A stretch of DNA of 64,000 nt, taken from positions 62,001-126,000 of the forward strand of contig NZ_JAEQBW010000008.1 in the NCBI RefSeq assembly GCF_016679925.1, in the 5' to 3' direction. A program made the translations under genes and the position numbers. This document shows positions 6,316-20,135 of this stretch, piece by piece. The notes beneath the pieces are model-generated. The model did not search any database. It had not been told where the DNA came from and saw nothing but the letters and a program-made list of their open reading frames with translations. The first letter of the stretch is position 1. Every line of letters begins with the position of its first letter. The stretch comes from Marivirga aurantiaca. Its GTDB lineage: Bacteria > Bacteroidota > Bacteroidia > Cytophagales > Cyclobacteriaceae.

Positions 6316-7581
6316 TTAAACCAATAAATTCATCAGGTATTCTTTGCTGTTTAAATAATCACCATAAAATCCTGACGCTTTCATTCTACTTACTAGCTGC
6401 TCAAAATCTTCGGATCTTTTCAACTCAATTCCCACTACAGCAGCGCCTGTCTCCCTGGAATTCTTTTTAGTATATTCAAAATGAGTAATGTCATCATCAG
6501 GCCCTAAAACATGTCCTACAAATTGCTTCAATGCCCCGGCTCGTTGAGGGAATTTCACGATGAAATAATGTTTTAAACCTCTGTAAAGTAAAGCTCTTTC
6601 CTTTATTTCTTCAGTACGGGTAATGTCGTTATTGCTTCCACTTATTACGCACACTACATTTTTGCCAACTATTTCCTCCCGATATTGCTCCAGCACAGCT
6701 ATTGATAATGCACCTGCGGGTTCTACCACTATGGCATCTTTATTATACATTTGAAGAATGATTTCACAAATTTTCCCTTCATCTACAGTAACAACTTCAG
6801 AAAGGTTTTTTTGGCAAATCTCAAAATTTAAGTCCCCCACTTTCTTAACAGCTGCCCCATCAACAAATTTTTCAATCTGATCCAGTTCTGTATTATAACC
6901 ATTTTCAAGAGATTTTTTCATGGCCGGAGCACCTGCCGGCTCTACTCCAATAATTTTAGTGTCAGGTGAAAAGGCTTTGAAAATTGTGCTTACACCAGCC
7001 GATAATCCGCCACCACCAATTGGCAGAAATAAATAATCAATAGTTGATTCAGTTTGATCCAATATTTCCAAGCCTACGGTAGCTTGTCCCTCAATTACCT
7101 TGGGATCATTGAATGGATGGATAAACAAGGTATTCTCTTTTTTGCAATGTTCTCTTGCAGCAAAATAGGCGTCATCAAATGTGTCTCCAATAAGTATGAT
7201 CTCTACATAATCTTCACCAAACATTCTTACCTGCTCAATTTTTTGTTTAGGGGTAGGGGCTGGCATGAAGATAGTGCCTCGCACTTTCAAAAGCTGACAA
7301 GAAAATGCCACCCCCTGAGCGTGATTTCCGGCACTTGCACAAACAATTCCTTTCCCCAATTCCGATTGATCTAAAGAACTGATTTTATTATAAGCGCCTC
7401 TTATTTTGTAGGAGCGTACGGTTTGTAAATCTTCCCTTTTAAAAAGTATATTGGCATTATAAGCTTTGGACAAAGCAATATTTTGCATCAAAGGTGTGTG
7501 CAATGCTACACCTTTTAATTTATCAGCTGCTTTTTGTATGTCCTTTATATGAGGATAGTAGCTTGTTGATGTTTCAATCAT
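6316..7581 (-). CDS. ilvA: Threonine dehydratase, biosynthetic (IlvA)
   Basis: This 421-residue enzyme deaminates threonine to 2-oxobutanoate, the first committed step to isoleucine. The PLP lysine lies in SYKIRGAYNK (Lys59), and the phosphate-binding glycine loop is GGGGLSAGV. The C-terminal 90 or so residues (from about HYFIVKFPQRAGALKQF) form an ACT-like regulatory domain typical of the biosynthetic form. It is the last gene of the leu/ilv run, 93 bases after ilvC with a strong hairpin in the gap. Biosynthetic rather than catabolic function is supported by both the domain and the operon. Confidence 0.95.
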   Translation of the reverse strand: MIETSTSYYPHIKDIQKAADKLKGVALHTPLMQNIALSKAYNANILFKREDLQTVRSYKIRGAYNKISSLDQSELGKGIVCASAGNHAQGVAFSCQLLKVRGTIFMPAPTPKQKIEQVRMFGEDYVEIILIGDTFDDAYFAAREHCKKENTLFIHPFNDPKVIEGQATVGLEILDQTESTIDYLFLPIGGGGLSAGVSTIFKAFSPDTKIIGVEPAGAPAMKKSLENGYNTELDQIEKFVDGAAVKKVGDLNFEICQKNLSEVVTVDEGKICEIILQMYNKDAIVVEPAGALSIAVLEQYREEIVGKNVVCVISGSNNDITRTEEIKERALLYRGLKHYFIVKFPQRAGALKQFVGHVLGPDDDITHFEYTKKNSRETGAAVVGIELKRSEDFEQLVSRMKASGFYGDYLNSKEYLMNLLV

Positions 7582-7674: not shown

Positions 7675-8721
7675 TTAAGCATTCTCAGGCCTCAGCTTTC
7701 TTACAGCCGCACCAGCCTGCCACATTTCAGAATCCTTCAATTCCCTCAATTCTTTTTCCAGCTCCACTCTGTAATCTTCTTTTTCGTTGGCAGTAATGGT
7801 TAGTTTGGCTTCATTTCCAGTTTCTACACTATCATATAGTTCTTCAAAAACAGGCTTAACGGCATCACGGAATTTTTTCCACCAATCCAATGCACCACGC
7901 TGGGCAGTGGTGGAGCAATTAGCATACATCCAGTCCATTCCGTTCTCAGCTACTAAAGGATAAAGTGATTGGGTAGCTTCCTCTACCGTTTCGTTAAAAG
8001 CTTCTGAAGGGGAATGTCCCTTTGAGCGTAAAAGATCATACTGAGCAGCAAATAGTCCCTGAATAGCTCCCATTAAGCTTCCTCTTTCTCCGGTTAAATC
8101 GCTATAAACCTCTTTCCTGAAATTGGTTTCAAATAAGTAGCCGGAGCCTACTCCAATTCCAAGCGCCAAACATCTTTCCAATGCTTTTCCTGTAGCGTCC
8201 TGGTGGATGGCGTAACTGGAGTTTAAGCCGCTCCCGTTCACAAATAATCTGCGTAAACTGGTGCCGGACCCCTTGGGGGCTACTAATATTACATCCACAT
8301 CTTTAGGAGGAACTATGCCGGTTTGATCTGAATAAGTAATGCCAAAGCCATGAGAAAAATATAAGGCTTTACCAGGAGTTAAATGTTTCTTTACTGTTTC
8401 CCATTGGGCAATCTGTCCTGCATCTGATAATAAATATTGTAAGATGGTGCCTTTTTCAGCAGCTTCTTCCAGTTCAAAAAGTGTTTTTCCGGGAATCCAG
8501 CCATCTTCCACTGCTTTGTCCCAGGTTTTGGAACCTTTACGCTGGCCTACAATTACGTTAAAGCCATTGTCTTTTAAATTTAGTGCTTGCCCGGGACCTT
8601 GCACTCCGTAACCTAAAACGGCAATGACCTCATCTTTCAAAACCTCCTGTGCCTTTTTTAAGGGGAATTCCTGACGAGTCATTACATTTTCTTCTATTGT
8701 TCCGAATTTTAATTTTGCCAT
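7675..8721 (-). CDS. ilvC: Ketol-acid reductoisomerase (IlvC)
   Basis: This 348-residue enzyme carries out the Mg2+- and NAD(P)H-dependent isomeroreduction of acetolactate and acetohydroxybutyrate in valine and isoleucine synthesis. The N-terminal Rossmann fold has GYGVQGPGQ (residues 37-45) followed by GQRKGSKTW in the cofactor-selecting loop. The C-terminal knotted helical domain contains DLTGERGSLMG and the metal-binding carboxylates. It follows ilvN by 78 bases within the leu/ilv run. Confidence 0.96.
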   Translation of the reverse strand: MAKLKFGTIEENVMTRQEFPLKKAQEVLKDEVIAVLGYGVQGPGQALNLKDNGFNVIVGQRKGSKTWDKAVEDGWIPGKTLFELEEAAEKGTILQYLLSDAGQIAQWETVKKHLTPGKALYFSHGFGITYSDQTGIVPPKDVDVILVAPKGSGTSLRRLFVNGSGLNSSYAIHQDATGKALERCLALGIGVGSGYLFETNFRKEVYSDLTGERGSLMGAIQGLFAAQYDLLRSKGHSPSEAFNETVEEATQSLYPLVAENGMDWMYANCSTTAQRGALDWWKKFRDAVKPVFEELYDSVETGNEAKLTITANEKEDYRVELEKELRELKDSEMWQAGAAVRKLRPENA

Positions 8722-8799: not shown

Positions 8800-9330
8800 T
8801 TATAGCCTGGAGGCTTTCTCTACTTCCGAGTAATAGTCCTGGAATTCCTTCATGCGTTTAGAGATTGAAATTCTTCCCGAACGAACAAACTCCAAAATGC
8901 CATGAGGTTTGAGTTGTTCGAAAAGATCTTGCGTTTCTTCTTTAAAACCGGTTTTCTCTATAATGGTAAACTCCGGCTCTACAGCCAATAATCGCGCGTG
9001 GTGTTTTCTTACAATTTGCTCCACCTCGCGTGTTTGCGACAAAATATTGGTAGGCATTTTATATAATGCCATTTCCTGGTAAACAATATCTTCGTTACGA
9101 TGATAGAAAGCCTTGAAAATTTCGATTTGCTTTTCAATTTGCTTTACTACATTTTTTACATTTACCTCTTCCTCAGTGATAACAACTGTATATCTGTGGA
9201 TACCACTCACTTCACTTTCTGAGGCGGTAATACTCTCAATATTGATATGCCTGCGGGTGAAAATAGTAGTCACGCGATGCAGTAAACCAATCATGTTTTC
9301 CGTGTATATCGATATCGTGAATTGTTCCAT
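8800..9330 (-). CDS. ilvN: Acetolactate synthase small (regulatory) subunit
   Basis: This 176-residue protein starts with an ACT domain (FTISIYTENMIGLLHRV, then RRHINIESITASESEVSG), the binding site for branched-chain feedback inhibitors in this family, followed by the usual C-terminal activation domain. It should bind the large subunit encoded just upstream and confer valine sensitivity. A gap of about 140 bases separates it from ilvB, larger than elsewhere in the operon. I saw no separate promoter. Confidence 0.94.
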   Translation of the reverse strand: MEQFTISIYTENMIGLLHRVTTIFTRRHINIESITASESEVSGIHRYTVVITEEEVNVKNVVKQIEKQIEIFKAFYHRNEDIVYQEMALYKMPTNILSQTREVEQIVRKHHARLLAVEPEFTIIEKTGFKEETQDLFEQLKPHGILEFVRSGRISISKRMKEFQDYYSEVEKASRL

Positions 9331-9471: not shown

Positions 9472-11199
9472 TCATTCTAGTCGTATTTCAGAGACCGAAG
9501 CACCTGTCGGAATCATGGGGAATATATTGTTTTCCTTCCCTACCAGTACTTCCAGTAAAAAGCTGCCGTCATGGGAAAGAAAGCGATGAATAGCACTTTC
9601 CAAATCTTCCCTTTCAGTTACTTTCTCAGCTGTAATGCCATATCCTTTTGCTATGATTTGAAAATCAGGATTAACCATGTCCACGGAGGAATAACGTTTT
9701 TCGAAAAAGAGATCCTGCCACTGCCGTACCATGCCTAAAAACTCATTATTGAGAATGAGGATTTTTACATCAACTCTGGTTTGAAACAGGGTGCCTAATT
9801 CCTGGATAGTCATTTGAAAGCCTCCATCTCCAATTACTGCAATAACCTGTCGGTGAGGAGCACCGAATTTAGCTCCTATGGCTGCCGGAAGAGCAAATCC
9901 CATAGTCCCCAATCCACCTGATGTTACATTGCTTTTCCACTGTCTAAAATTGTAGTAGCGTTGAGCAATCATTTGATGCTGACCTACATCGGTCACTATG
10001 ATGGCGGCTCCTTTGGAAATATCGGAGATTCTGCGGATCACTTCTCCCATGGTTATTTTATCATTCTCAGGAGGGAAAAGTTCATCTTTGATGACCATTT
10101 CATTCTCTGTAGTAATTAATTCCTTTGCCCTATGGAGCCAATCAGGATATTCCTTCGGAGTAATTGCTTTCGTGAGTTGATCTAATGATTCTTTGCAATT
10201 TCCTAAAACAGCCACATCAACCGTCACATTTTTGTTGATTTCAGCAGGATCTATTTCCAAATGAATGATTTTTGCCTGCTTTGCATAACGTGATACATCA
10301 CCCGTTACACGGTCGTCAAAGCGCATGCCCACTGCAATTAAAACATCACATTCATTGGTCATGATATTAGGCGCATAATTTCCATGCATTCCCAACATGC
10401 CAATATTTAGTGGATGATCAGTGTTAAGGGCAGATAATCCCATGATAGTCCATGCAGCAGGAATACCGGTTTTTTCAACAAATGCCTGAAATTCTTTTCT
10501 GGCATCAGCCAGCAGAATCCCATGGCCAAAAACAATGAGCGGCTTTTTAGCCGAATCAATTACTCTGGCTGCCAATTCAATGGCTTTTGAATCTATTTGC
10601 GGATTAGGTACATAGCTTCTGATGTGATGACATGGCTCATAGGTAAATTCAAAAGTCTCAAACTGGGCATCTTTGGTGATATCTATTAATACTGGTCCGG
10701 GCTTGCCACTTTTAGCTATATAAAAAGCTTTTGCTATAGCTGCAGGAATGTCTTTGGCTTTTGTAATTTGAATGTTCCATTTCGTCACTGGCATAGAAAT
10801 ACTTACTATATCAGTTTCCTGGAATGCGTCAGTGCCTATCATTTTGCTGGAAACCTGTCCTGTAATACATACTATGGCAGTTGAATCCAGTTGAGCATCT
10901 GCCAAACCTGTAATTAAATTGGTGGCTCCGGGACCTGATGTAGCCAGACAAACTCCGACCTTTCCGGATATGCGGGCATAGCCCTGAGCAGCATGAGTGG
11001 CACCTTGTTCATGTCGTGTCATAATGTGCTTTAACTCTTTTTCATAATAATAGAGCGCATCATACACAGGCATAATGGCACCACCCGGGTAGCCAAATAT
11101 AGTGTCCACCTTTTCTGCAATCAATGCTCTTACTAAAGCTTCCGCACCGGTAATAGTGGTTTTCTTTACTTGCGTTTTTGTTAATTGTGTGGGTTCCAT
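9472..11199 (-). CDS. ilvB: Acetolactate synthase large (catalytic) subunit
   Basis: This 575-residue protein has the three-domain thiamine diphosphate enzyme layout. The N-terminal part contains GYPGGAIMPVYDAL and the catalytic glutamate in RHEQGATHAAQGYAR. The TPP/Mg2+ motif is GDGGFQMTIQELGT with NNEFLGMVRQWQ. It condenses pyruvate with pyruvate or 2-oxobutanoate in valine/leucine and isoleucine synthesis. The ATG lies one base after the ilvD stop codon, so translation is probably coupled. The regulatory subunit gene follows downstream. Confidence 0.96.
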   Translation of the reverse strand: MEPTQLTKTQVKKTTITGAEALVRALIAEKVDTIFGYPGGAIMPVYDALYYYEKELKHIMTRHEQGATHAAQGYARISGKVGVCLATSGPGATNLITGLADAQLDSTAIVCITGQVSSKMIGTDAFQETDIVSISMPVTKWNIQITKAKDIPAAIAKAFYIAKSGKPGPVLIDITKDAQFETFEFTYEPCHHIRSYVPNPQIDSKAIELAARVIDSAKKPLIVFGHGILLADARKEFQAFVEKTGIPAAWTIMGLSALNTDHPLNIGMLGMHGNYAPNIMTNECDVLIAVGMRFDDRVTGDVSRYAKQAKIIHLEIDPAEINKNVTVDVAVLGNCKESLDQLTKAITPKEYPDWLHRAKELITTENEMVIKDELFPPENDKITMGEVIRRISDISKGAAIIVTDVGQHQMIAQRYYNFRQWKSNVTSGGLGTMGFALPAAIGAKFGAPHRQVIAVIGDGGFQMTIQELGTLFQTRVDVKILILNNEFLGMVRQWQDLFFEKRYSSVDMVNPDFQIIAKGYGITAEKVTEREDLESAIHRFLSHDGSFLLEVLVGKENNIFPMIPTGASVSEIRLE

Positions 11200-11200
11200 A

Positions 11201-12880
11201 TTATTGGTCGGTTATACATCCCAATGATGCGGATGAAACAAGTTTTGCGTATTTGTATAATGTACCTGTATGTTTTCTGAGAGGTCTTTCAGCTAAATTT
11301 TCTCTTCTTTTCTCAAGTATATCATCAGCTACTTTCAAAGTGATGCTATTTTTGATTGCATCTATTCTGATGATGTCTCCATTTTCTACTAAAGCCAATG
11401 GACCTCCCAGGAAAGCTTCCGGGGAAATATGGCCTACTACAAAGCCGTGGGTGCCACCCGAAAATCTACCATCAGTGATCAGCGCTACGGAATCACCTAG
11501 TCCCTTGCCCATGATGGCAGAGGTGGGTTTTAACATTTCCGGCATTCCGGGACCTCCTTTTGGGCCTTCATAGCGGATGACCACCACATCTCCAGATTGA
11601 ATTTCTCCATTGGCAATACCATCGTTGGTGGCAAATTCGCCATCATAAACTCGTGCTGTCCCTTCAAAAATTTCTCCTTCCTTGCCTGTGATTTTGGCTA
11701 CAGCCCCTTCCGGTGCTAAATTTCCTTTCAGAATTCTTAAATGACCTGATGTTTTAATGGGTGTTTTAGCGGAGTGAATAATTTTCTGGTTTTCTCCTAA
11801 TTCAGGTAAATCCTTTAGATTTTCAGCTATGGTTTTTCCCGTGACAGTCATGCAATTGCCATCCAGCAAACCTTCTTTCAGCATCTGTTTCATTACAGCC
11901 GGCACACCGCCTGCTTTATGTAAGTCTTCCATCAGGTACTTACCGCTTGGTTTCAAATCTGCTAGATAGGGTGTTCTGGCACTTATTTTAGCAAAATCTT
12001 CTAAAGTTAAATTGATGTCAAATGCGTGGGCAACAGCCAATAAATGCAAAACAGCATTGGTAGATCCTCCTAATACAGTAACTAAAGCTATAGCATTTTC
12101 AAATGAAGCGCGTGTAACTATCTTTCTTGGGCTTAAATCAGTTTCCACCAAATGTTTAATAGCTTTTCCGGCTGCATTACATTCCGCTTTCTTTTCCGGG
12201 CTTTGTGCCGGATTGGAAGAACCATACGGCAGACATAATCCTAAAGCTTCAATAGCCGAAGCCATGGTGTTGGCAGTGTACATCCCTCCGCATGCCCCTG
12301 GCCCGGGACATGCATTGGCCACTATACCATTGAAATCTTCTTCCGAAATGGTTTTAGCTTGTTTCTTCCCAAGTGCTTCAAAGGCTGAAACAACATCTAA
12401 TGCTTCTCCTTTAAAACAGCCTGGAGCAATAGTTCCACCGTATATAATGAGTGAAGGTCTGTCCAGCCTGCCCATAGCTATTAATGCTCCGGGCATATTT
12501 TTATCACAGCCTGTTACAGCAATTAGTGCGTCATAAGCCTGGGCGTTTACCACCGTTTCCATTGAATCAGCAATAATATCCCGGGAAGGCAAACTGTACC
12601 GCATGCCTGCTGTGCCCATGGAAATCCCATCACTTACGCCAATAGTATTGAAAATGAGCCCTACCCACTCTAAAGCCTTTATGCCTTTTTTTACTTCTAC
12701 CGCCAAATCATTCAGGTGCATATTGCAAGGATTCCCCTCAAATCCTGTGCTGCCAATGCCAATCTGAGGTTTTTTCAAATCTTCATCCGTCAAGCCAATG
12801 GCATGTAACATAGCCTGTGCTGCGGGTTGAGTGGGGTCCTGAGTAACTACTTTGCTATATTTATTGAGCTCTTGAGCCAT
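11201..12880 (-). CDS. ilvD: Dihydroxy-acid dehydratase (IlvD)
   Basis: This 559-residue iron-sulfur dehydratase converts dihydroxy acids to 2-oxo acids in valine and isoleucine synthesis. Cluster cysteines are visible in [20 protein letters not shown] and [16 protein letters not shown]. The C-terminal part has [17 protein letters not shown]. Length and motifs are normal. It starts 6 bases after the ilvE stop codon, consistent with one transcript downstream of the attenuator. Confidence 0.96.
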
Positions 12881-12886
12881 AATTTC

Positions 12887-13777
12887 TTATATGATAGTTT
12901 GATTCTGTAAATCGTTGTATTGTACCTTTTGCCTATACATTTGGTAAAGGTTGTAGCCCAGCGAATCTTCCCAGTGTAGAGGAAAGGTAGTCTTGTCAAC
13001 GCTTGCAATGGGTGCAACTTCAGCAGCAGTACCAGTGAAGAAAGCACAATCGGCATCCAATAATTGAGATTTTGTAATTGGCTTTTCTGTTAGTTTGATT
13101 CCCAGTTCTCTGGCTAAGTCTATTACTGTTCTGCGTGTAATTCCCGGAAGTATATTTCCTCTGGAAGGGGTGAATAATTCACCATTTTTTTCAATAAAAA
13201 TATTGGCTCCTGATCCTTCAGATACATGACCTGTGTGATCTAAAAGAATAGCTTCATCATATCCGTTCTTCTTAGCTTCTGTTGTGGCTAAAATGGAGTT
13301 GGTATAATGGCCAACAACTTTGGCTTCCACATGTTGTGAGGCAGGATGGATCCGCTGATAGGAGGATATTTTGGCTTTTATAGGATTGTTGCCTAAATAT
13401 TTTTCCCACTTCCATGCACAAATAAATACATTTACTTCCTTTACCGGCTCCAGGGCCATATTGGCTCCTAAATAAACCAGAGGACGTATGTAGGCATCAG
13501 TTAAATTATTTTTATCTAATAATTCATAACTTATGCTTACCAATTCATCTACCGAATAGGGGAGGTCAATGTGCATTAATTGGGCAGAATAATGCAGCCT
13601 TTCAAAATGTTCATGTGCTTTGAAAATGTTAAATCCCACATCATTTTTATAGGCTCTTATCCCTTCAAATACACCATTTCCATAATGTAAAGTCTGACCA
13701 TATAAGCTGGTATTAGCTTCTTTCGCAGGAAGCCATTGACCATTTAAGAATACAAAAGTGTTATTGTTGTAGTACAT
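12887..13777 (-). CDS. ilvE: Branched-chain amino acid aminotransferase (IlvE, class IV)
   Basis: This 296-residue fold-type IV PLP enzyme carries out the last step for leucine, isoleucine and valine. Family signatures include LHYGNGVFEGIRAYK, the region around the PLP lysine (EAKVVGHYTNSILA) and DEAILLDHTGHVSEGSGANIF. It is the first gene after the attenuator; its ATG lies about 30 bases beyond the terminator T-run. ilvE and everything downstream to ilvA should therefore respond to charged-tRNA supply. Confidence 0.95.
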   Translation of the reverse strand: MYYNNNTFVFLNGQWLPAKEANTSLYGQTLHYGNGVFEGIRAYKNDVGFNIFKAHEHFERLHYSAQLMHIDLPYSVDELVSISYELLDKNNLTDAYIRPLVYLGANMALEPVKEVNVFICAWKWEKYLGNNPIKAKISSYQRIHPASQHVEAKVVGHYTNSILATTEAKKNGYDEAILLDHTGHVSEGSGANIFIEKNGELFTPSRGNILPGITRRTVIDLARELGIKLTEKPITKSQLLDADCAFFTGTAAEVAPIASVDKTTFPLHWEDSLGYNLYQMYRQKVQYNDLQNQTII

Positions 13778-13808: not shown

Positions 13809-13840
13809 AAAAAAAAAGCGCCATCCTGTGGGATGACGCC
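13809..13840 (-). terminator. Attenuator terminator before ilvE
   Basis: On the minus strand GCGTCATCC and GGATGGCGC form a nine-pair stem (one G-T wobble) around a CACA loop, followed by nine T (13809-13817). The stem's 5' half is complementary to the leader arm at 13870-13877. Confidence 0.9.
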
Positions 13841-13871
13841 TTCTCAAAAAAATATATTTATGAGTTTTCCG

Positions 13872-13925
13872 TCATCCTTTTTCTTTTAGGATAATGACTG
13901 TAATAATTGTGGTAATGACGTTCAT
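13872..13925 (-). CDS. ilv operon leader peptide
   Basis: This 17-codon frame encodes MNVITTIITVIILKEKG. Twelve of the residues from position 3 to 13 and their neighbours are Val, Ile, Thr or Leu, the end products or precursor of the operon. It ends in TGA inside the antiterminator arm. An in-frame ATG eight codons upstream (13947-13949) overlaps the leuB stop as TGATG, so a 25-residue form made by translational coupling with leuB is also possible. Too short for standard gene callers, but position, composition and RNA pairing together make it convincing. Confidence 0.85.
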   Translation of the reverse strand: MNVITTIITVIILKEKG

Positions 13926-13948
13926 TGAATTTTGGAAAATGGTGTTCA

Positions 13949-15034
13949 TCAATTTGCTAATGCTTTATTCTTTGAATAAATAAATGAAGCTATTCTATCT
14001 CCCACTTCTTCAGTGGTTTTAGCGTTCTCTTTAAAGATATCTTCAGTGGTAAAACCTTTATCAAGGGATTTTTCGACTGCTTCTTGGATTAAATTACTTT
14101 CCTCATGTAACTGAAAAGCATATTCCAGTAACATGGCAGCAGAAAGAATAGAGCCAATAGGATTTGCTTTGTTTTTTCCCGCTACTTCCGGATAAGAACC
14201 ATGAATAGGTTCGAATAAACTTTGTCTTGTGCCTAATGAAGCTGATGGTAGCATGCCCAGTGAACCAGAAATAACTGAAGCTTCATCAGTAATTATGTCG
14301 CCAAACATATTTTCCGTTAATACCACATCAAAATGTTTAGGATTTTGAATGATCTTCATAGCTGCATTATCCACAAACATGAAATCCAATTCTATTTCAG
14401 GATATTGTCTGGCCAGCTTAGTGACTGTTTCCCTCCATAAGCGAGAGGTAGCCAGTACATTGGCTTTATCGACTAAGGTTACTTTCTTGCGTCTTTTAGC
14501 TGCTGCCTGAAAAGCGTAATGCGCAATTCGTTCAATTTCATGTTTAGAGTAAACACAGGTGTCAAAAGCTTTGTCCCCATCTTCTGATCTACCTCGAGGC
14601 TCTCCAAAATAAATACCTCCTGTCAATTCACGAAACACCACAAAATCCACTCCTCTTATAATCTCTTCTTTTAAAGGAGATATAGATAAAAGTACTTCGT
14701 AGCTATTCACAGGCCGTACATTGGCAAACAATCCTAATTTCTTGCGCATACTCAGCAACCCTTGTTCCGGTCTTACTTTTGCACTTGGGTCATTGTCATA
14801 TTTAGGATGGCCAATGGCTCCAAATAAAATAGCATCAGTAGTTTTGCATACTTTTTCTGTAGCTTCCGGGAAAGGGTTTCCTGTTGCATCAATGGCAACA
14901 GCACCAATTAGTGCCTCGTGGTAAATAAATTGATGATTGAAAACCTCAGCCACTGCATCAAGGCATTTTATAGCTTGTTTGGTCACTTCAGGACCTATTC
15001 CGTCTCCGGCTAATATTGCTATTGATTTCTTCAT
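13949..15034 (-). CDS. leuB: 3-isopropylmalate dehydrogenase (LeuB)
   Basis: This 361-residue protein oxidises and decarboxylates 3-isopropylmalate to 2-oxoisocaproate using NAD+. It has AGDGIGPEV at the N-terminus, RELTGGIYFGEPRG in the substrate region and ENMFGDIITDEASVISGSLGMLPSASLG in the cofactor/metal region. It follows leuD by 137 bases of structured, unusually G+C-rich spacer. Its TGA overlaps a possible ATG of the ilv leader peptide. Confidence 0.96.
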   Translation of the reverse strand: MKKSIAILAGDGIGPEVTKQAIKCLDAVAEVFNHQFIYHEALIGAVAIDATGNPFPEATEKVCKTTDAILFGAIGHPKYDNDPSAKVRPEQGLLSMRKKLGLFANVRPVNSYEVLLSISPLKEEIIRGVDFVVFRELTGGIYFGEPRGRSEDGDKAFDTCVYSKHEIERIAHYAFQAAAKRRKKVTLVDKANVLATSRLWRETVTKLARQYPEIELDFMFVDNAAMKIIQNPKHFDVVLTENMFGDIITDEASVISGSLGMLPSASLGTRQSLFEPIHGSYPEVAGKNKANPIGSILSAAMLLEYAFQLHEESNLIQEAVEKSLDKGFTTEDIFKENAKTTEEVGDRIASFIYSKNKALAN

Positions 15035-15096
15035 TTCTTTTTAAAAATATTTGCAATTACATTTTTTACATTTCGATGGCCCGTCACCCCCTCCAT

Positions 15097-15133
15097 CCCC
15101 GAACTTCCAAACCATGAGCGAGAGGAAGTGGGG
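15097..15133 (-). repeat. G+C-rich stem-loop in the leuD-leuB spacer
   Basis: CCCC (15097-15100) and CTTCC (15104-15108) can pair with GGAAG (15124-15128) and GGGG (15130-15133), with an unequal internal bulge. The flanking 15078-15155 is richer in G+C than the neighbouring spacers. It looks like a dispersed intergenic palindrome rather than a leuB leader; no open frame or T-run is present. Confidence 0.45.
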
Positions 15134-15171
15134 ATTGAAAAGGGTTTAACCTAAACGGGTTAACAACATTC

Positions 15172-15759
15172 CTAAATTCTGCTTTCTTCAAAAGCCGTAA
15201 TTTCATTTGATTTATTGAGTAAAAAATCTATATCATCAAAGCCATTGATCATACAATATTTTTTGTAATTGTTGATTTCAAAGCTTTCAGCAATTTCTTC
15301 ATTTTCAATGCTGATTAATTGCTCCTCCAGATTGACTTGCATAATGGTCTCAGGATCTTTTTCTACTATTTCAAATATCTTGGTCAATATTTCATCACTC
15401 ACTTGTACAGGTAGCAAGCCATTGTTAAGGGCATTGTTCTTAAAAATATCGGCAAAGAAACTGGATATTATCACCCTAAATCCATAATCATATAAAGCCC
15501 AGGCCGCATGTTCACGGCTTGATCCACAACCGAAATTTCTTCCAGCGACCAATATTTCACCTGAAATACCTTTCTTATTTAGTATAAATTCAGGGTTAGG
15601 GCTATCATTTTCCAGATAGCGCCAATCCCTGAATAAATTATCCCCGAAGCCCTCTCTACTCACCGCTTTTAAAAAGCGGGCGGGGATAATTTGATCTGTA
15701 TCCACATCTTCCATCGGAAGTAAAACACATGTGGAATATAATCTTATGAATTTTTCCAT
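15172..15759 (-). CDS. leuD: 3-isopropylmalate dehydratase small subunit (LeuD)
   Basis: This 195-residue swivel-domain subunit pairs with LeuC to isomerise 2-isopropylmalate to 3-isopropylmalate. Signatures are [19 protein letters not shown] and [17 protein letters not shown]. The length is normal for the bacterial small subunit. It starts 3 bases after the leuC stop codon, so the two subunits should be made together. Confidence 0.96.
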
Positions 15760-15762
15760 CTT

Positions 15763-17163
15763 TCAGTCTTTTAATAAGTCCCTTACATCTGTAACTCTAC
15801 CTGTTAAGGCAGCTGCAGCAGCAGTCAAAGGACTTGCCAGCATTGTTCGTGCGCCAGGCCCTTGCCTTCCTTCAAAATTTCTATTGGAAGTAGATACACA
15901 ATATTTTCCTTTTGGGATTTTATCTTCATTCATACCCAAACATGCAGAACAACCGGACTGTCTTAATTCAAAGCCTGCTTCTTTTAATATCAGATCAATA
16001 CCTTCTGCAATAGCTTGTTGTTCCACCTGCCTTGAGCCGGGAACAATCATGGCCTGCACATGCGCTGCTTTCTTTTTACCTTTCACCATATCAGCCACCA
16101 ATCGCAAATCTTCAATACGCGAATTGGTACAGCTACCTATGAAAACAAAATCAATTTCATGGCCCAGTAATTGGCTTCCGCCCTGTAGTTCCATGTATTT
16201 CAATGATTTTTCCAATCCTGAGGAGGAAGTGCCATTGACTTGCGGAATAAACTGTGTAATTCCCATACCCATACCAGGATTTGTGCCATAGGTAATCATA
16301 GGTTCTATGTCCTCTGCTTTGAAATAATATTCAGCATCAAATTTTGCATCAGTATCTGTTTTCAGCCTTTGCCATTCGGCCAGTTTCTTTTCCCATTCAT
16401 TGCCAACAGGAGCAAATTGTCTTCCTTTAATGTATTCGAATGTTTTTTCGTCCGGTGCAATTAAACCACCTCTCGCCCCCATCTCAATACTCATATTACA
16501 AATGGTCATGCGTGCTTCCATTGATAAAGCCTCAATAGCAGATCCGCAAAATTCAATAAAGTGGCCAGTTCCCCCACTTGTGGTTAATTGGGAAATAATG
16601 TACAGCACTATATCTTTGGAAAGTACGCCTCTCTTAAGTTCACCATCTACCTGTATTTTCATGGTTTTGGGTTTACGCTGCAGCACACATTGAGTAGCTA
16701 AAACCTGCTCTACTTCGCTGGTGCCAATACCAAAAGCAATATTTCCAAAAGCACCATGGGTAGAGGTGTGGCTGTCTCCACAAACAATAGTCATTCCCGG
16801 TTGCGTAATCCCTAATTCAGGACCTATAACATGCACTATGCCTTGATAAGGATGTCCCAGGCCATATAATTCCACTCCAAACTCTTTGCAATTTCTAATT
16901 AAAGTGTCCACCTGATGCCTTGAGAGGACATCTTTGATAGGTAAATGTTGGTTTTCGGTAGGTACGTTATGATCTGCTGTGGCAATAGTATGTTCTGTTC
17001 GGTAAACAGGGATGCCTCTTTTCTTTAGTCCGGCAAAAGCCTGCGGGCTAGTTACTTCGTGGATAAAATGTTTATCAATGTAGAGTACTTGTGGTCCCTC
17101 TTCAACAGTGTGAACCACATGGGTATCCCATATTTTATCAAATAATGTTTTTGCTGCTGCCAT
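15763..17163 (-). CDS. leuC: 3-isopropylmalate dehydratase large subunit (LeuC)
   Basis: This 466-residue aconitase-superfamily protein carries the iron-sulfur active site of the leucine-pathway isomerase. Visible motifs are [24 protein letters not shown] and the paired cluster cysteines in [13 protein letters not shown]. It follows leuA by 16 bases and precedes leuD by 3. Length is as expected. Confidence 0.96.
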
Positions 17164-17179: not shown

Positions 17180-18340
17180 TTATTTAGAAACTGTTGCGTA
17201 TTCTTTTACTAAGTATTGCAAATCATTGTCCTCTACTACTTTTATGCTGTCAGCCAATTCCAGGAATTTTTTGTAAGTATCTTCCAGCTCTTCTTTGCCA
17301 AGAAAAATATCAAGTTCTCCTAATCGGAAATTTAAGGCAGCTCTTCCGCTTCTGGCAGTTAATATGATGCTTGATTTATTGACTCCCACTTCATAAGGGT
17401 CAATGATTTCATAATTTTCTTTATTTTTAATTACTCCATCCTGATGGATTCCTGATGAGTGTGAGAATGCATTGGCACCTACAATGGCTTTGTTAGGCTG
17501 AACGGCCATATTCATCGTTTCAGAAACCATTTTACTCATTGGAAAAAGCTTCTCACTTTTGATCCCTGTATCATAGTTTAGCCAGTGATGTTTTCTTAAG
17601 ATCATAACCACCTCTTCTAATGCAGTATTTCCGGCACGTTCGCCTATTCCGTTAATGGTGCATTCAATTTGTCTGGCTCCGTTTATAACAGCTTCAATAC
17701 TATTGGCGGTAGCTAGACCCAAGTCATTATGACAATGGGTAGAAATGATGGCTTTATCTATATTGCTGACGTTATCAACCAAAAATTTTATTTTTTTACC
17801 ATACTCCTGTGGCAAGCAATAACCTGTTGTGTCAGGAATATTGACCACGGTTGCACCTGCTTTAATAGCGGCCTCAACTACCTGGGCTAAAAATTCATTG
17901 GAAGTTCTACCAGCATCTTCTGCATAAAACTCTACATCATCTACAAAATTTCTGGCATAGCTTACAGCCTCAATGGCTCTTTCTATTACTTGTTTTTTAG
18001 ATATTTTCAGTTTAGTGAAAACATGCTGATCGGATGTGCCTAAGCCGGTATGGATTCTGGGTTTGGCAGCTCCCTTTAATGCTTCGGCAGCACACTCGAT
18101 ATCTTTTTTTACAGCGCGGGAAAGTGCGCAGATGCTTACATCCCTGAGTTCGGCAGAAAGTAATTTTACTGATTCAAAATCGCCCGGACTGGAAACAGGA
18201 AATCCTGCTTCTATTACATCTACACCCAGTGATTGAAGAGCGGTGCCAATATGTAGTTTTTCTTTTTTTGAAAGCCCGCAACCAGGCACTTGTTCTCCAT
18301 CTCTTAATGTGGTGTCGAAAATTTGAATTCTGTTCTGCAT
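17180..18340 (-). CDS. leuA: 2-isopropylmalate synthase, short form (LeuA)
   Basis: This 386-residue HMGL-like TIM-barrel enzyme condenses acetyl-CoA and 2-oxoisovalerate, the first step to leucine. [13 protein letters not shown] provides the metal-binding Asp, and [11 protein letters not shown] provides the HxH ligands. Canonical LeuA is about 500 residues; this one lacks most or all of the C-terminal leucine-binding regulatory domain. Homocitrate or citramalate synthase would have similar motifs, but the adjacent leuCDB genes favour LeuA. It is the first gene of the leu/ilv run, with about 240 bases upstream to a divergent gene. Confidence 0.92.
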
Positions 18341-18584
18341 TGCTATTCAGTTTGCTGACTACTAATGAATTTGTTCTAATCTTTAACTTTTATAAAATCT
18401 AATGTAGGTGGAAACTTTAGCGGATGTAATGCCAAATATTTTTGTAATTACGATTTCTAATACTTAAATATGTTATGATTTTAATTCTCATAGAGAGCTA
18501 TTTTGTATAATTTATGCTCTTAATATAGGTTTTTGATTTAAATAAGGATGAATTAACTGCATATTAAATACATAAATAAATACG

Positions 18585-20135
18585 ATGGCAAAGGATAGAT
18601 CTGATCATTTATTTACGCTGGTGAAATCATTAAATAGGAGTGAGAAGCGCTACTTCAAATTATTTGTGAGCCATCATGAAGAAATGGGAGCTAAATACAT
18701 ACGGCTTTTTGAAATGATAGAAAAGCAAAACAAATTTGATGAAAATACTATCCTACAAAAGGAAACTTCTTTTGAGCCCGCTCAATTTTCTAATTTAAAA
18801 GCTCATTTATATAAACGGTTATTGCAAAGTTTAAGGCAATACGAGCTGGAGAAAATTGAAGAAATTCAGATAAGGGAGATGGTGGATTATGTTCAGTTAT
18901 TGTTTAACCGTGGCTTATATCAGCAAAGTGTGGATATGCTTGGCAAAGCTCATAAAAAAGTACGTAAAACTGATAATCTGGAATTGAAGTTGGAGCTTTT
19001 GAAATGGGAGAAAATTATTTTGAATAAAACCGTAGGAGCCTCTTTTCAACAGCGTGTGCACCGGATTATCGAACAGGTAGAAGATACCAATAGAAAAATT
19101 AACCTGATTAATAAGTTTACTAATCTTTCAGTGCAACTGAATGCTGTTTATCTTAAAACTGGCTATATTAGAAATGATGCACATTACCTCGAAATAAAAG
19201 AACTCTTTTATCATAATATGCCTGAACATAAGGAAGAGGAGTTATCGCTTTACGAAAAACTGAACCTTTATCGTCTGTACGTTAACTACTATTATTTCAC
19301 TGAAGAGATGGAATCGGGCTATGAATATGCCAAAAGGTGGCTGAAGCTATTTGATAAGAATCCGGAGTTGAGGCAATCGCAAATGGACGAATACTTAAAT
19401 GCGATTAACCAGGTGATGATAGCAGAATACAAGCTCTTTCATTATGCTGATTTTATGAAAACCCGAAAAAGATTGCAGGCACTGAATCAGCAAACACAGA
19501 AAATAGTCAATGAAAATATTCGCTACAGATTACTGAAATATGTTTTCGTGCATGAGTTCAACAGGATATTTATGTTGGGGAAATTCAATATCGGTGTCTC
19601 TCTTTTAGATAGAATAGGTGAGGATTTGGGTAAATTTATTGCTCGCTCTGATGAGCATTCCCGGATTATTCTATTTTATAAAATTGCCTGCTTGTATTTT
19701 GGGAATAGCCAATATAGTGAAGCTTTGGAATGGATCAATAGGGTTCAAAACGATGAAAATGTGGAATTGAGGGAAGACATCCACTCCTTTACAAGGATTC
19801 TAAGTTTAATTGCCCATTATGAACTGGGGAATATGGAGGTGATTGATTACTATATTCGTTCGGCCTATCGTTTCTTACTGAAAAAAGGGGATTTAAATTT
19901 ATTTCAGAAATATATACTACGGTTTTTAAGGAAACTAGCTTCTGGTTTTCAGGAGGAAGATTTGATCCCTGAATTCAAAAAGCTATTGGAGCAACTTATT
20001 CCTCTCCAGAGCATTAGATATGAAAAAAGAGCATTTATTTATTTTGATATTATCAGTTGGCTGGAGAGTAAAATTCAGCATCGAACTGTGCAGGAAGTAA
20101 TTCAGGAGAAAGCTAAAAAACAAATTTTGGGATAA
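18585..20135 (+). CDS. Conserved helical protein of unknown function
   Basis: This 516-residue protein has no signal peptide or membrane helix and is predicted to be nearly all helix. The N-terminal 90 residues (LFTLVKSLNRSEKRYFKLF, then NLKAHLYKRLLQSLRQYELEK) are characteristic of a family I have seen only as hypothetical in Bacteroidota. The rest contains TPR-like helical pairs such as IACLYFGNSQYSEALEWINRV. A cytoplasmic scaffold or adaptor is plausible. It diverges from leuA and converges with thrC, and neither tells its function. Confidence 0.8.
   Translation: MAKDRSDHLFTLVKSLNRSEKRYFKLFVSHHEEMGAKYIRLFEMIEKQNKFDENTILQKETSFEPAQFSNLKAHLYKRLLQSLRQYELEKIEEIQIREMVDYVQLLFNRGLYQQSVDMLGKAHKKVRKTDNLELKLELLKWEKIILNKTVGASFQQRVHRIIEQVEDTNRKINLINKFTNLSVQLNAVYLKTGYIRNDAHYLEIKELFYHNMPEHKEEELSLYEKLNLYRLYVNYYYFTEEMESGYEYAKRWLKLFDKNPELRQSQMDEYLNAINQVMIAEYKLFHYADFMKTRKRLQALNQQTQKIVNENIRYRLLKYVFVHEFNRIFMLGKFNIGVSLLDRIGEDLGKFIARSDEHSRIILFYKIACLYFGNSQYSEALEWINRVQNDENVELREDIHSFTRILSLIAHYELGNMEVIDYYIRSAYRFLLKKGDLNLFQKYILRFLRKLASGFQEEDLIPEFKKLLEQLIPLQSIRYEKRAFIYFDIISWLESKIQHRTVQEVIQEKAKKQILG

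Follow-up and report, generated by a model that had tools for sequence, protein, structure and literature searches.

Ribosome-mediated attenuators control the trp, his, leu, ilvGMEDA and thr operons of enterobacteria, and the pheM attenuator is located inside the infC-rplT-pheST cluster of Escherichia coli. Here we analysed a 64,000-nucleotide stretch of DNA from Marivirga aurantiaca, referred to below as the window, which contains a putative attenuator between leuB and ilvE. The mechanism is classical and the layout is a variant. The element shares with the enterobacterial attenuators a leader that is rich in the products of the operon, alternative 2:3 and 3:4 pairing, a U tract and a stop codon near arm 2, but differs from them in that it is placed after leuB within a run of leu and ilv genes, the leader overlaps the preceding stop codon, and arm 1 is weak. 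With pheM it has in common that a leader-peptide attenuator is internal to a larger gene cluster, although, to our knowledge, pheM senses Phe and has no stop-start overlap with the gene that precedes it.

Leader genes in general are treated in PMC4833913. The published description of the ilvB-II motif of Corynebacterium and of the ilvB-OMG and ilvB uORF motifs places a BCAA-rich uORF before ilvB and draws ilvB-OMG from various phyla (PMC10272879). These motifs resemble the present element in having a conserved BCAA-rich uORF before an ilv gene and the same inferred mechanism, with a terminator stem in the case of ilvB-II; they precede ilvB, however, whereas ilvE is the leading gene here, and the window gave no Rfam match. 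Given the various phyla from which ilvB-OMG is drawn, an overlap with Bacteroidota members is possible. For Flavobacterium psychrophilum, a member of the same phylum in which leader-peptide attenuation has likewise been inferred, "strong clues" of such attenuation before amino acid operons have been reported (PMC9723704). The pheA and hisG elements are named there among those conserved in other genera, and the term "ilv" is absent from the main text of that paper (PMC9723704). Bacteroid-trp RNA (RF01692) has been presented as a cis-regulatory candidate of Bacteroidetes, by its name at trp (PMC2864571), and gave no Rfam match in the window or in the loci of 16 relatives. Small ORFs of Bacteroides thetaiotaomicron have been described as reminiscent of attenuating leaders (PMC7366714).

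Our literature search found no paper with a title or description that concerned an ilv attenuator of Bacteroidota, and the related statements for this phylum in the sources located were general ones, concerning one flavobacterium and sORFs in one Bacteroides; an earlier prediction in the 2010 comparative work of Lopatovskaya and others is possible. Scanning with Rfam at gathering score yielded one tRNA alone in the window, and likewise one tRNA for the loci of the 16 relatives. Matches at permissive E-values were rejected, being far under the family cut-offs (Thr_leader, RF00506, 15.3 bits versus 55).

The element between leuB and ilvE

The ten genes leuA, leuC, leuD, leuB, ilvE, ilvD, ilvB, ilvN, ilvC and ilvA all lie on the minus strand of the window (Table 1). 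On the same strand, a leader, an arm overlapping its stop codon, a terminator and nine U are present between leuB and ilvE, at 13809-13949. Each of these features had been described in a first-pass annotation made from the sequence, and their positions were confirmed to the base, as was the exact eight-base pairing that it had claimed between the arms.

Table 1 Genes of the leu-ilv run and parts of the putative attenuator, listed in the direction of transcription
Feature	Position	Strand	Remarks
leuA	17180-18340	minus	NCBIfam
leuC	15763-17163	minus	NCBIfam
leuD	15172-15759	minus	NCBIfam
leuB, 3-isopropylmalate dehydrogenase	13949..15034	minus	TIGR00169 above cut-off; last gene before the attenuator
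Leader ORF (probable), 25 aa, MNTIFQNSMNVITTIITVIILKEKG + stop	13872..13949	minus	Opens with the ATG within TGATG, which overlaps the leuB stop
Shorter leader of the first-pass annotation, 17 aa	13872..13925	minus	Start at the inner ATG, 13925-13923
Possible arm 1, GTCATTATCCT	13888..13898	minus	Over Val-Ile-Ile codons; weak pairing with arm 2
Last Ile codon, ATC	13890..13892	minus	Distance to arm 2 of 14 nt in the scan; predicted to be the last stall site at which arm 2 stays free
Arm 2 (antiterminator 5' arm), GGATGACG	13877-13870	minus	Contains the leader stop codon
Leader stop, TGA	13874-13872	minus	Inside arm 2
Terminator, GGCGTCATCCCACAGGATGGCGC	13840-13818	minus	5' arm includes CGTCATCC
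Arm 3, GGCGTCATCC	13831..13840	minus	Forms the antiterminator with arm 2 or the terminator with arm 4
Complement of arm 2, CGTCATCC	13838-13831	minus	Exact complement, eight exact pairs with GGATGACG
Arm 4 of the terminator hairpin, GGATGGCGC	13818..13826	minus	
U tract, nine U	13817-13809	minus	Directly 3' of the terminator hairpin
ilvE, branched-chain aminotransferase	12887..13777	minus	NF005146 and TIGR01122 above cut-off; first gene after the attenuator
ilvD	11201-12880	minus	NCBIfam
ilvB	9472-11199	minus	NCBIfam
ilvN	8800-9330	minus	NCBIfam
ilvC	7675-8721	minus	NCBIfam
ilvA, threonine ammonia-lyase	6316-7581	minus	NCBIfam

Folded alone, the terminator had an energy of -20.6 kcal/mol (z -6.1), arms 2:3 an energy of -16.6 kcal/mol (z -5.3), and arms 1:2 one of -6.1 kcal/mol (z -2.5). 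Compared with dinucleotide shuffles of its own upstream region, the 2:3 duplex of the window had a z value of -4.7, and the joined pattern of arms 2, 3 and 4 was found only once in the 5.0-Mb genome to which it belongs. Given these fold z values, the single genomic occurrence, and the absence of matches in the controls described below, the element is more than a product of chance.

Two start codons were considered for the leader. The inner ATG, from which the first-pass annotation had read a peptide of 17 residues, is missing from the congeneric loci L007-L010. The leaders of these four loci begin at the ATG that overlaps the leuB stop, with an extra ATG codon before that one in L008, and their sole other in-frame ATG is located three codons before the leader end. 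The leader of the window thus probably starts at the overlapping ATG and comprises 25 amino acids. Neither this longer reading frame nor the possible weak arm 1 had been noted in the first-pass annotation. In the window, TGATG joins the leuB stop codon TGA (13951-13949) to the ATG at 13949-13947, which is in frame with the leader. This overlap, to which the first-pass annotation had already drawn attention, is kept as TGATG or TAATG in five of the seven same-genus loci (the window, L007, L008, L009 and L010), regardless of the divergence of the leader body, which shows 20-25% identity with that of the window in same-genus loci. A 5-nt gap separates leuB from the leader in L005, and L006 has a longer spacer.

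Several other features of the region were recorded. LeuA has 386 aa and its model match is restricted to positions 4-385 of 516, and leuC begins 16 nt downstream of leuA; the COOH-terminal part of LeuA, which we take to be the leucine feedback domain, seems to be absent. The 137-nt gap between leuD and leuB (15035-15171, minus strand) contains G+C-rich stretches, and was rejected as a repeat because it is present as a single copy in the genome. An ORF of 516 aa that is divergent from leuA (18585-20135, plus strand) gave no Pfam match, and a related start region seems, by eye, to adjoin leuA in most of 12 relatives. A protein of the 23S rRNA-intervening-sequence type (PF05635; 4167-4523, plus strand) is flanked by two ORFs that look GTPase-like by eye.

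A terminator scan of the 500 nt before leuA gave no hit in the window or in 10 of the 12 relatives, and weak hairpins in the other two (L045, -7.5 kcal/mol; L051, -7.6 kcal/mol). Inspection by eye revealed in L050 a longer-looped terminator-like hairpin about 230 nt before leuA that the scan had missed, as well as a RATCGTAATTA-like motif before leuA (window 18445-18456, minus strand, and L039-L051) that is conserved in relatives. A stretch resembling this motif is also present upstream of the ilv leaders of L014 and L019. A search of the genome for the exact 13-mer gave a single hit, and matches with at most one mismatch did not outnumber those of a reversed-pattern control (13 versus 33); a transcription factor reading of the motif was set aside accordingly. 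Constitutive production of leuACDB, as suggested in the first-pass annotation, is a conjecture to be weighed together with this motif before leuA.

Leaders and terminators upstream of ilvE in relatives

Genomes for the comparison were picked by IlvE similarity, with a match required at an E-value of 1e-60. Such a match was obtained for 7 of the 10 genomes of the genus and for 39 of the 98 genomes of the family (with the own genome in each count); the other 3 same-genus and 59 family genomes therefore lay outside the survey. The 39 matching family genomes provided loci from 30, with 9 outside the survey. Beyond the window, 34 loci came from the genus and family searches and 80 from titled genome records, these being the highest-ranking among at least 594 stretches. 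Among the 115 ilvE loci (L001, L005-L038, L059-L138), 98 upstream regions were analysed, namely those of the window, 34 family loci and 63 loci from genome records, mostly of Bacteroidota; L122-L138 (mainly gammaproteobacterial, with a few others) and three paralogues (L002-L004) were left out. The 98 regions include one exact duplicate (L032/L083, identical over the last 160 nt before ilvE), five with less than 300 nt of upstream sequence, and L119, which begins inside ilvE and has no true upstream sequence; it yielded no terminator candidate, so that the finds are unaffected, and it adds to the controls.

Three same-genus genomes, G001, G002 and G007 (the last of them 86% complete), had no IlvE match at 1e-60, and IlvE has possibly been lost or replaced in them. 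The IlvE protein of L060, a record titled Candidatus Planktophila lacus, is 59% identical to the Bacteroidota protein of the window, and this locus is perhaps a mis-binned contig.

An attenuator was accepted if its 2:3 duplex ranked among the best 5% of 200 dinucleotide shuffles and if Ile plus Val made up at least 25% of its leader, the leader for each terminator being the ORF with the highest Ile plus Val share. Scoring of 118 terminator candidates upstream of ilvE gave 68 attenuators in 58 of the 98 regions, counts that represent non-independent events given that the loci are related by descent; the other 40 regions failed these criteria. When the survey was re-run with 100 shuffles, L080 (which contains an N) and L108 being skipped, 68 attenuators in 57 loci were obtained on the real strand, compared with none among 36 terminators on the reverse complement of the same regions and none among 24 terminators in all in three shuffled sets. 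Without selection for pairing, 87 attenuators in 68 loci were found with a mean 2:3 z value of -2.97, and 68 of these ranked in the best 5% of shuffles and 45 in the best 1%.

Within the family, 28 of 35 loci passed and 7 failed. A leader and a terminator are present in five of the latter, with a 2:3 duplex below the cut-off in L005, L013 and L036, and with an Ile plus Val content of 22.5% (9/40), also below the cut-off, in L032 and L035. No attenuator-like element was detected within 500 nt in L016, which has a leuB-ilvE spacer of 15 nt, or in L017.

The relation between arms 2 and 3 was evaluated with an alignment-free arm-swap test, in which each upstream region was paired with every arm 3. 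Pairing with the own arm 3 had an energy of -16.3 kcal/mol versus -11.0 kcal/mol for the arms of others in the family (n = 39) and of -14.9 versus -9.7 kcal/mol in the whole set (n = 87, including two false terminators of L037), and in neither case was a value as low reached in 5000 permutations. The own arm 3 of the window ranked first of 39 (-17.0 versus a mean of -7.5), and own arms were outright the best partner in just 8 of 39 family cases and 13 of 87 overall. These comparisons indicate that arms 2 and 3 coevolve across relatives. Pair counts were not drawn from a MAFFT alignment of 24 attenuators, because it put both arm 2 and the hairpin in the wrong place for L007-L010.

Tandem pairs were observed before ilvE in L020, L022, L024, L026, L028, L075, L087 and L089, as well as in the Tenacibaculum loci L071, L073, L074, L076 and L078. 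The Bizionia locus L079 has three terminators with one leader each and a nearly identical repeat unit, and L080 has three terminators, one of them with a clear leader; stacked terminators mostly carry an Ile/Val leader of their own. Hairpins of this kind are also found at the head of ilv units that have no leu gene within the 17 kb covered (L014, L019 and L027, in the stretches L055, L056 and L057).

These results bear on the possibility that the hairpin is a mere constitutive terminator of the leu operon, accompanied by a short ORF and a second arm by chance. A strong hairpin and a U tract after leuB are what such a terminator would look like, but the leader is conserved, the arms coevolve, the codons keep a fairly fixed spacing, and the controls gave zero; moreover, the interval between the U tract and ilvE is without a promoter-like site, and hairpins of this kind head ilv units with no leu gene in the 17 kb covered. 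We consider this explanation very improbable. The first-pass annotation had instead claimed an ilv attenuator after leuB with an Ile/Val leader and an arm overlapping the stop codon, and had named relatives as its test; relatives retain the hairpin and the Ile/Val codons jointly, and the arms covary, in agreement with that claim. Sequence and comparison show that the leader, its Ile/Val codons, arms 2, 3 and 4, and the U tract are present and have been maintained jointly in many of the related loci.

Codon register and amino acids probably sensed

Compared with the IlvE proteins of the same loci, the accepted leaders contained 26.1% versus 6.5% Ile and 12.3% versus 5.5% Val, figures that are inflated by the choice of ORF, whereas neither Leu (9.0% versus 9.2%) nor Thr (6.6% versus 5.9%) was enriched. 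An ORF with 25% Ile plus Val accompanied 86 of 116 real-strand terminators compared with 5 of 36 on the reverse strand. The Val codon GTC was strongly favoured in leaders (97 of 195 Val codons, versus 92 of 928 in the corresponding ilvE genes), with pairing of GTCATT with arm 2 as one candidate cause.

Leaders that sense more than one amino acid are known, as in the ilvGMEDA and thr leaders of E. coli, and the first-pass annotation had included Thr among the amino acids sensed. The 25 residues of the window leader comprise 6 Ile, 2 Val, 4 Thr and 1 Leu, the operon contains ilvA, and the Thr_leader family gave its match, far below cut-off, all of which would fit a multivalent leader that also senses Thr (or Leu) besides Ile and Val. 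The Thr and Leu contents of accepted leaders are nevertheless at the level of IlvE, and the leaders of the six congeners L005-L010 contain 0 to 3 Thr. The claim for Thr was thus unsupported, and sensing of an additional amino acid appears improbable.

The distance from the first base of the last Ile or Val codon to arm 2 had a median of 13 nt (n = 67, with L064 of the 68 skipped), and 76% of the 67 values fell at 9-16 nt. Shuffling of codon order gave a median of 7 nt and a mean of 30% at 9-16 nt, with 45% as the largest value of 500 shuffles. Given that the tightest of the 500 shuffles (standard deviation 3.4) matched the standard deviation of the actual distances (3.6), the evidence lies in the shift to 9-16 nt and not in the spread. 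For 56 of the 67, the leader stop codon was inside arm 2 or no more than 3 nt away from it. Footprinting has shown that a ribosome with the last codon in its A site extends about 12-14 nt beyond it, so that arm 2 would be just free at the stall and covered at the stop. Among the results, it is this register between codons and arm that, in our judgement, argues most strongly for ribosome stalling.

A metabolite- or protein-binding RNA, such as a riboswitch or T-box, would likewise possess a terminator with alternative pairing, as is present here. The conserved features, however, are those of a coding leader set in register with arm 2, and no cis-regulatory Rfam family was matched at gathering score in the window or the 16 relatives' loci; control by such an RNA in place of ribosome stalling is, in our view, extremely improbable.

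With regard to arm 1, pairing between leader and arm 2 in 66 attenuators was stronger than under synonymous resampling (-9.8 versus -8.3, Wilcoxon 4e-5), and that of the window leader was not significant in the same comparison (p 0.49). These values argue weakly for arm 1 as a full third hairpin.

Placement in the operon and proposed mechanism

In the family, leuB directly precedes ilvE in 14 of 35 loci, and a leader and terminator are present between the two genes in 13 of those 14. The position after leuB, described as unusual in the first-pass annotation, therefore recurs in 13 of the 35 family loci, and the placement is shared by the genus.

Promoter-like sites were scored out of 9 against TTG/TAnnTTTG, which we take to be the -33/-7 promoter consensus. 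The gap between the U tract and ilvE measures 31 nt, and the best match with its -7 box in this interval reached 5 of 9, so that transcription of ilvE must pass the terminator. In 29 of the 64 loci scored, a site with a score of 8 or 9 lay no more than 40 nt from the leader, versus 12 of 322 windows along the operon, and a promoter-like site was found by the leader in 10 of 16 scored family loci that have no leuB upstream. Within the same distance, the window and five congeneric loci (L005, L007-L010) reached only 5 or 6. Because no promoter-like site is close to the leader in these six genomes, the attenuator is probably internal to a single leu-ilv operon in them.

The attenuator may, on the other hand, be real and served by a separate ilv promoter inside leuB, in which case leu and ilv would form two units and the overlap of leader and leuB would be incidental. 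A promoter-like site is found near the leader in relatives with leuB upstream, for example L006, L011, L012, L013 and L018, with a perfect match 16 nt before the leader in L006, and the window itself has an 8-of-9 match within leuB, 82 nt upstream of the leader, a level reached in 30 of 322 90-nt windows. The low scores near the leader in the window, L005 and L007-L010, compared with at least 8 in 29 of the 64 loci, argue against this arrangement, as does the overlap of the ATG with the leuB stop, which is kept in five of seven same-genus loci despite leaders at 20-25% identity. We consider a separate promoter in leuB rather unlikely.

We propose, on the basis of sequence and comparison, that the element is with high probability a ribosome-mediated transcription attenuator, which would respond to charged Ile- and Val-tRNA and thereby determine whether transcription of leuACDB continues into ilvEDBNCA. 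Under a shortage of Ile or Val, a ribosome would come to a halt at the Ile/Val codons, its front edge immediately short of arm 2; arms 2 and 3 would then pair, the terminator would be blocked, and the polymerase would enter ilvE. When both amino acids are ample, the ribosome would reach the stop codon within arm 2 and mask this arm, and pairing of arms 3 and 4 would terminate transcription about 140 nt past the leuB stop, so that the mRNA would cover leuACDB alone. Termination may also be favoured by the weak 1:2 hairpin when the leader goes untranslated. Ribosomes that finish leuB probably re-initiate at the overlapping ATG of the leader in the window and the loci closest to it, because no promoter-like site is close to the leader in those genomes.

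A more extended reading, to which we give tentative credence at somewhat less than an even chance, is that the leader is read by termination-reinitiation from leuB and that the switch integrates leuB translation with the charging of Ile- and Val-tRNA, such that a leu-only mRNA would be made when both suffice. According to this scenario, the arrangement would have arisen in the genus by loss of an ancestral ilv promoter adjacent to the leader, with leu and ilv units fusing around a widespread and often tandem class of ilv attenuators that is absent from Rfam.

The type of switch is classical, and it is the placement inside an operon together with the spread among relatives that is worth cataloguing. 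The findings would add a class of Ile/Val attenuators that occurs in loci from records titled as several groups of Bacteroidota and is unmatched by Rfam in the loci scanned. The geometric rule that the last sensing codon lies about 13 nt before arm 2 may serve in searches of the phylum for attenuators that respond to other amino acids. The loci also appear to provide a natural series, which leads from loci with a promoter plus attenuator before ilvE to loci in which the attenuator is enclosed by two sets of genes that have fused.
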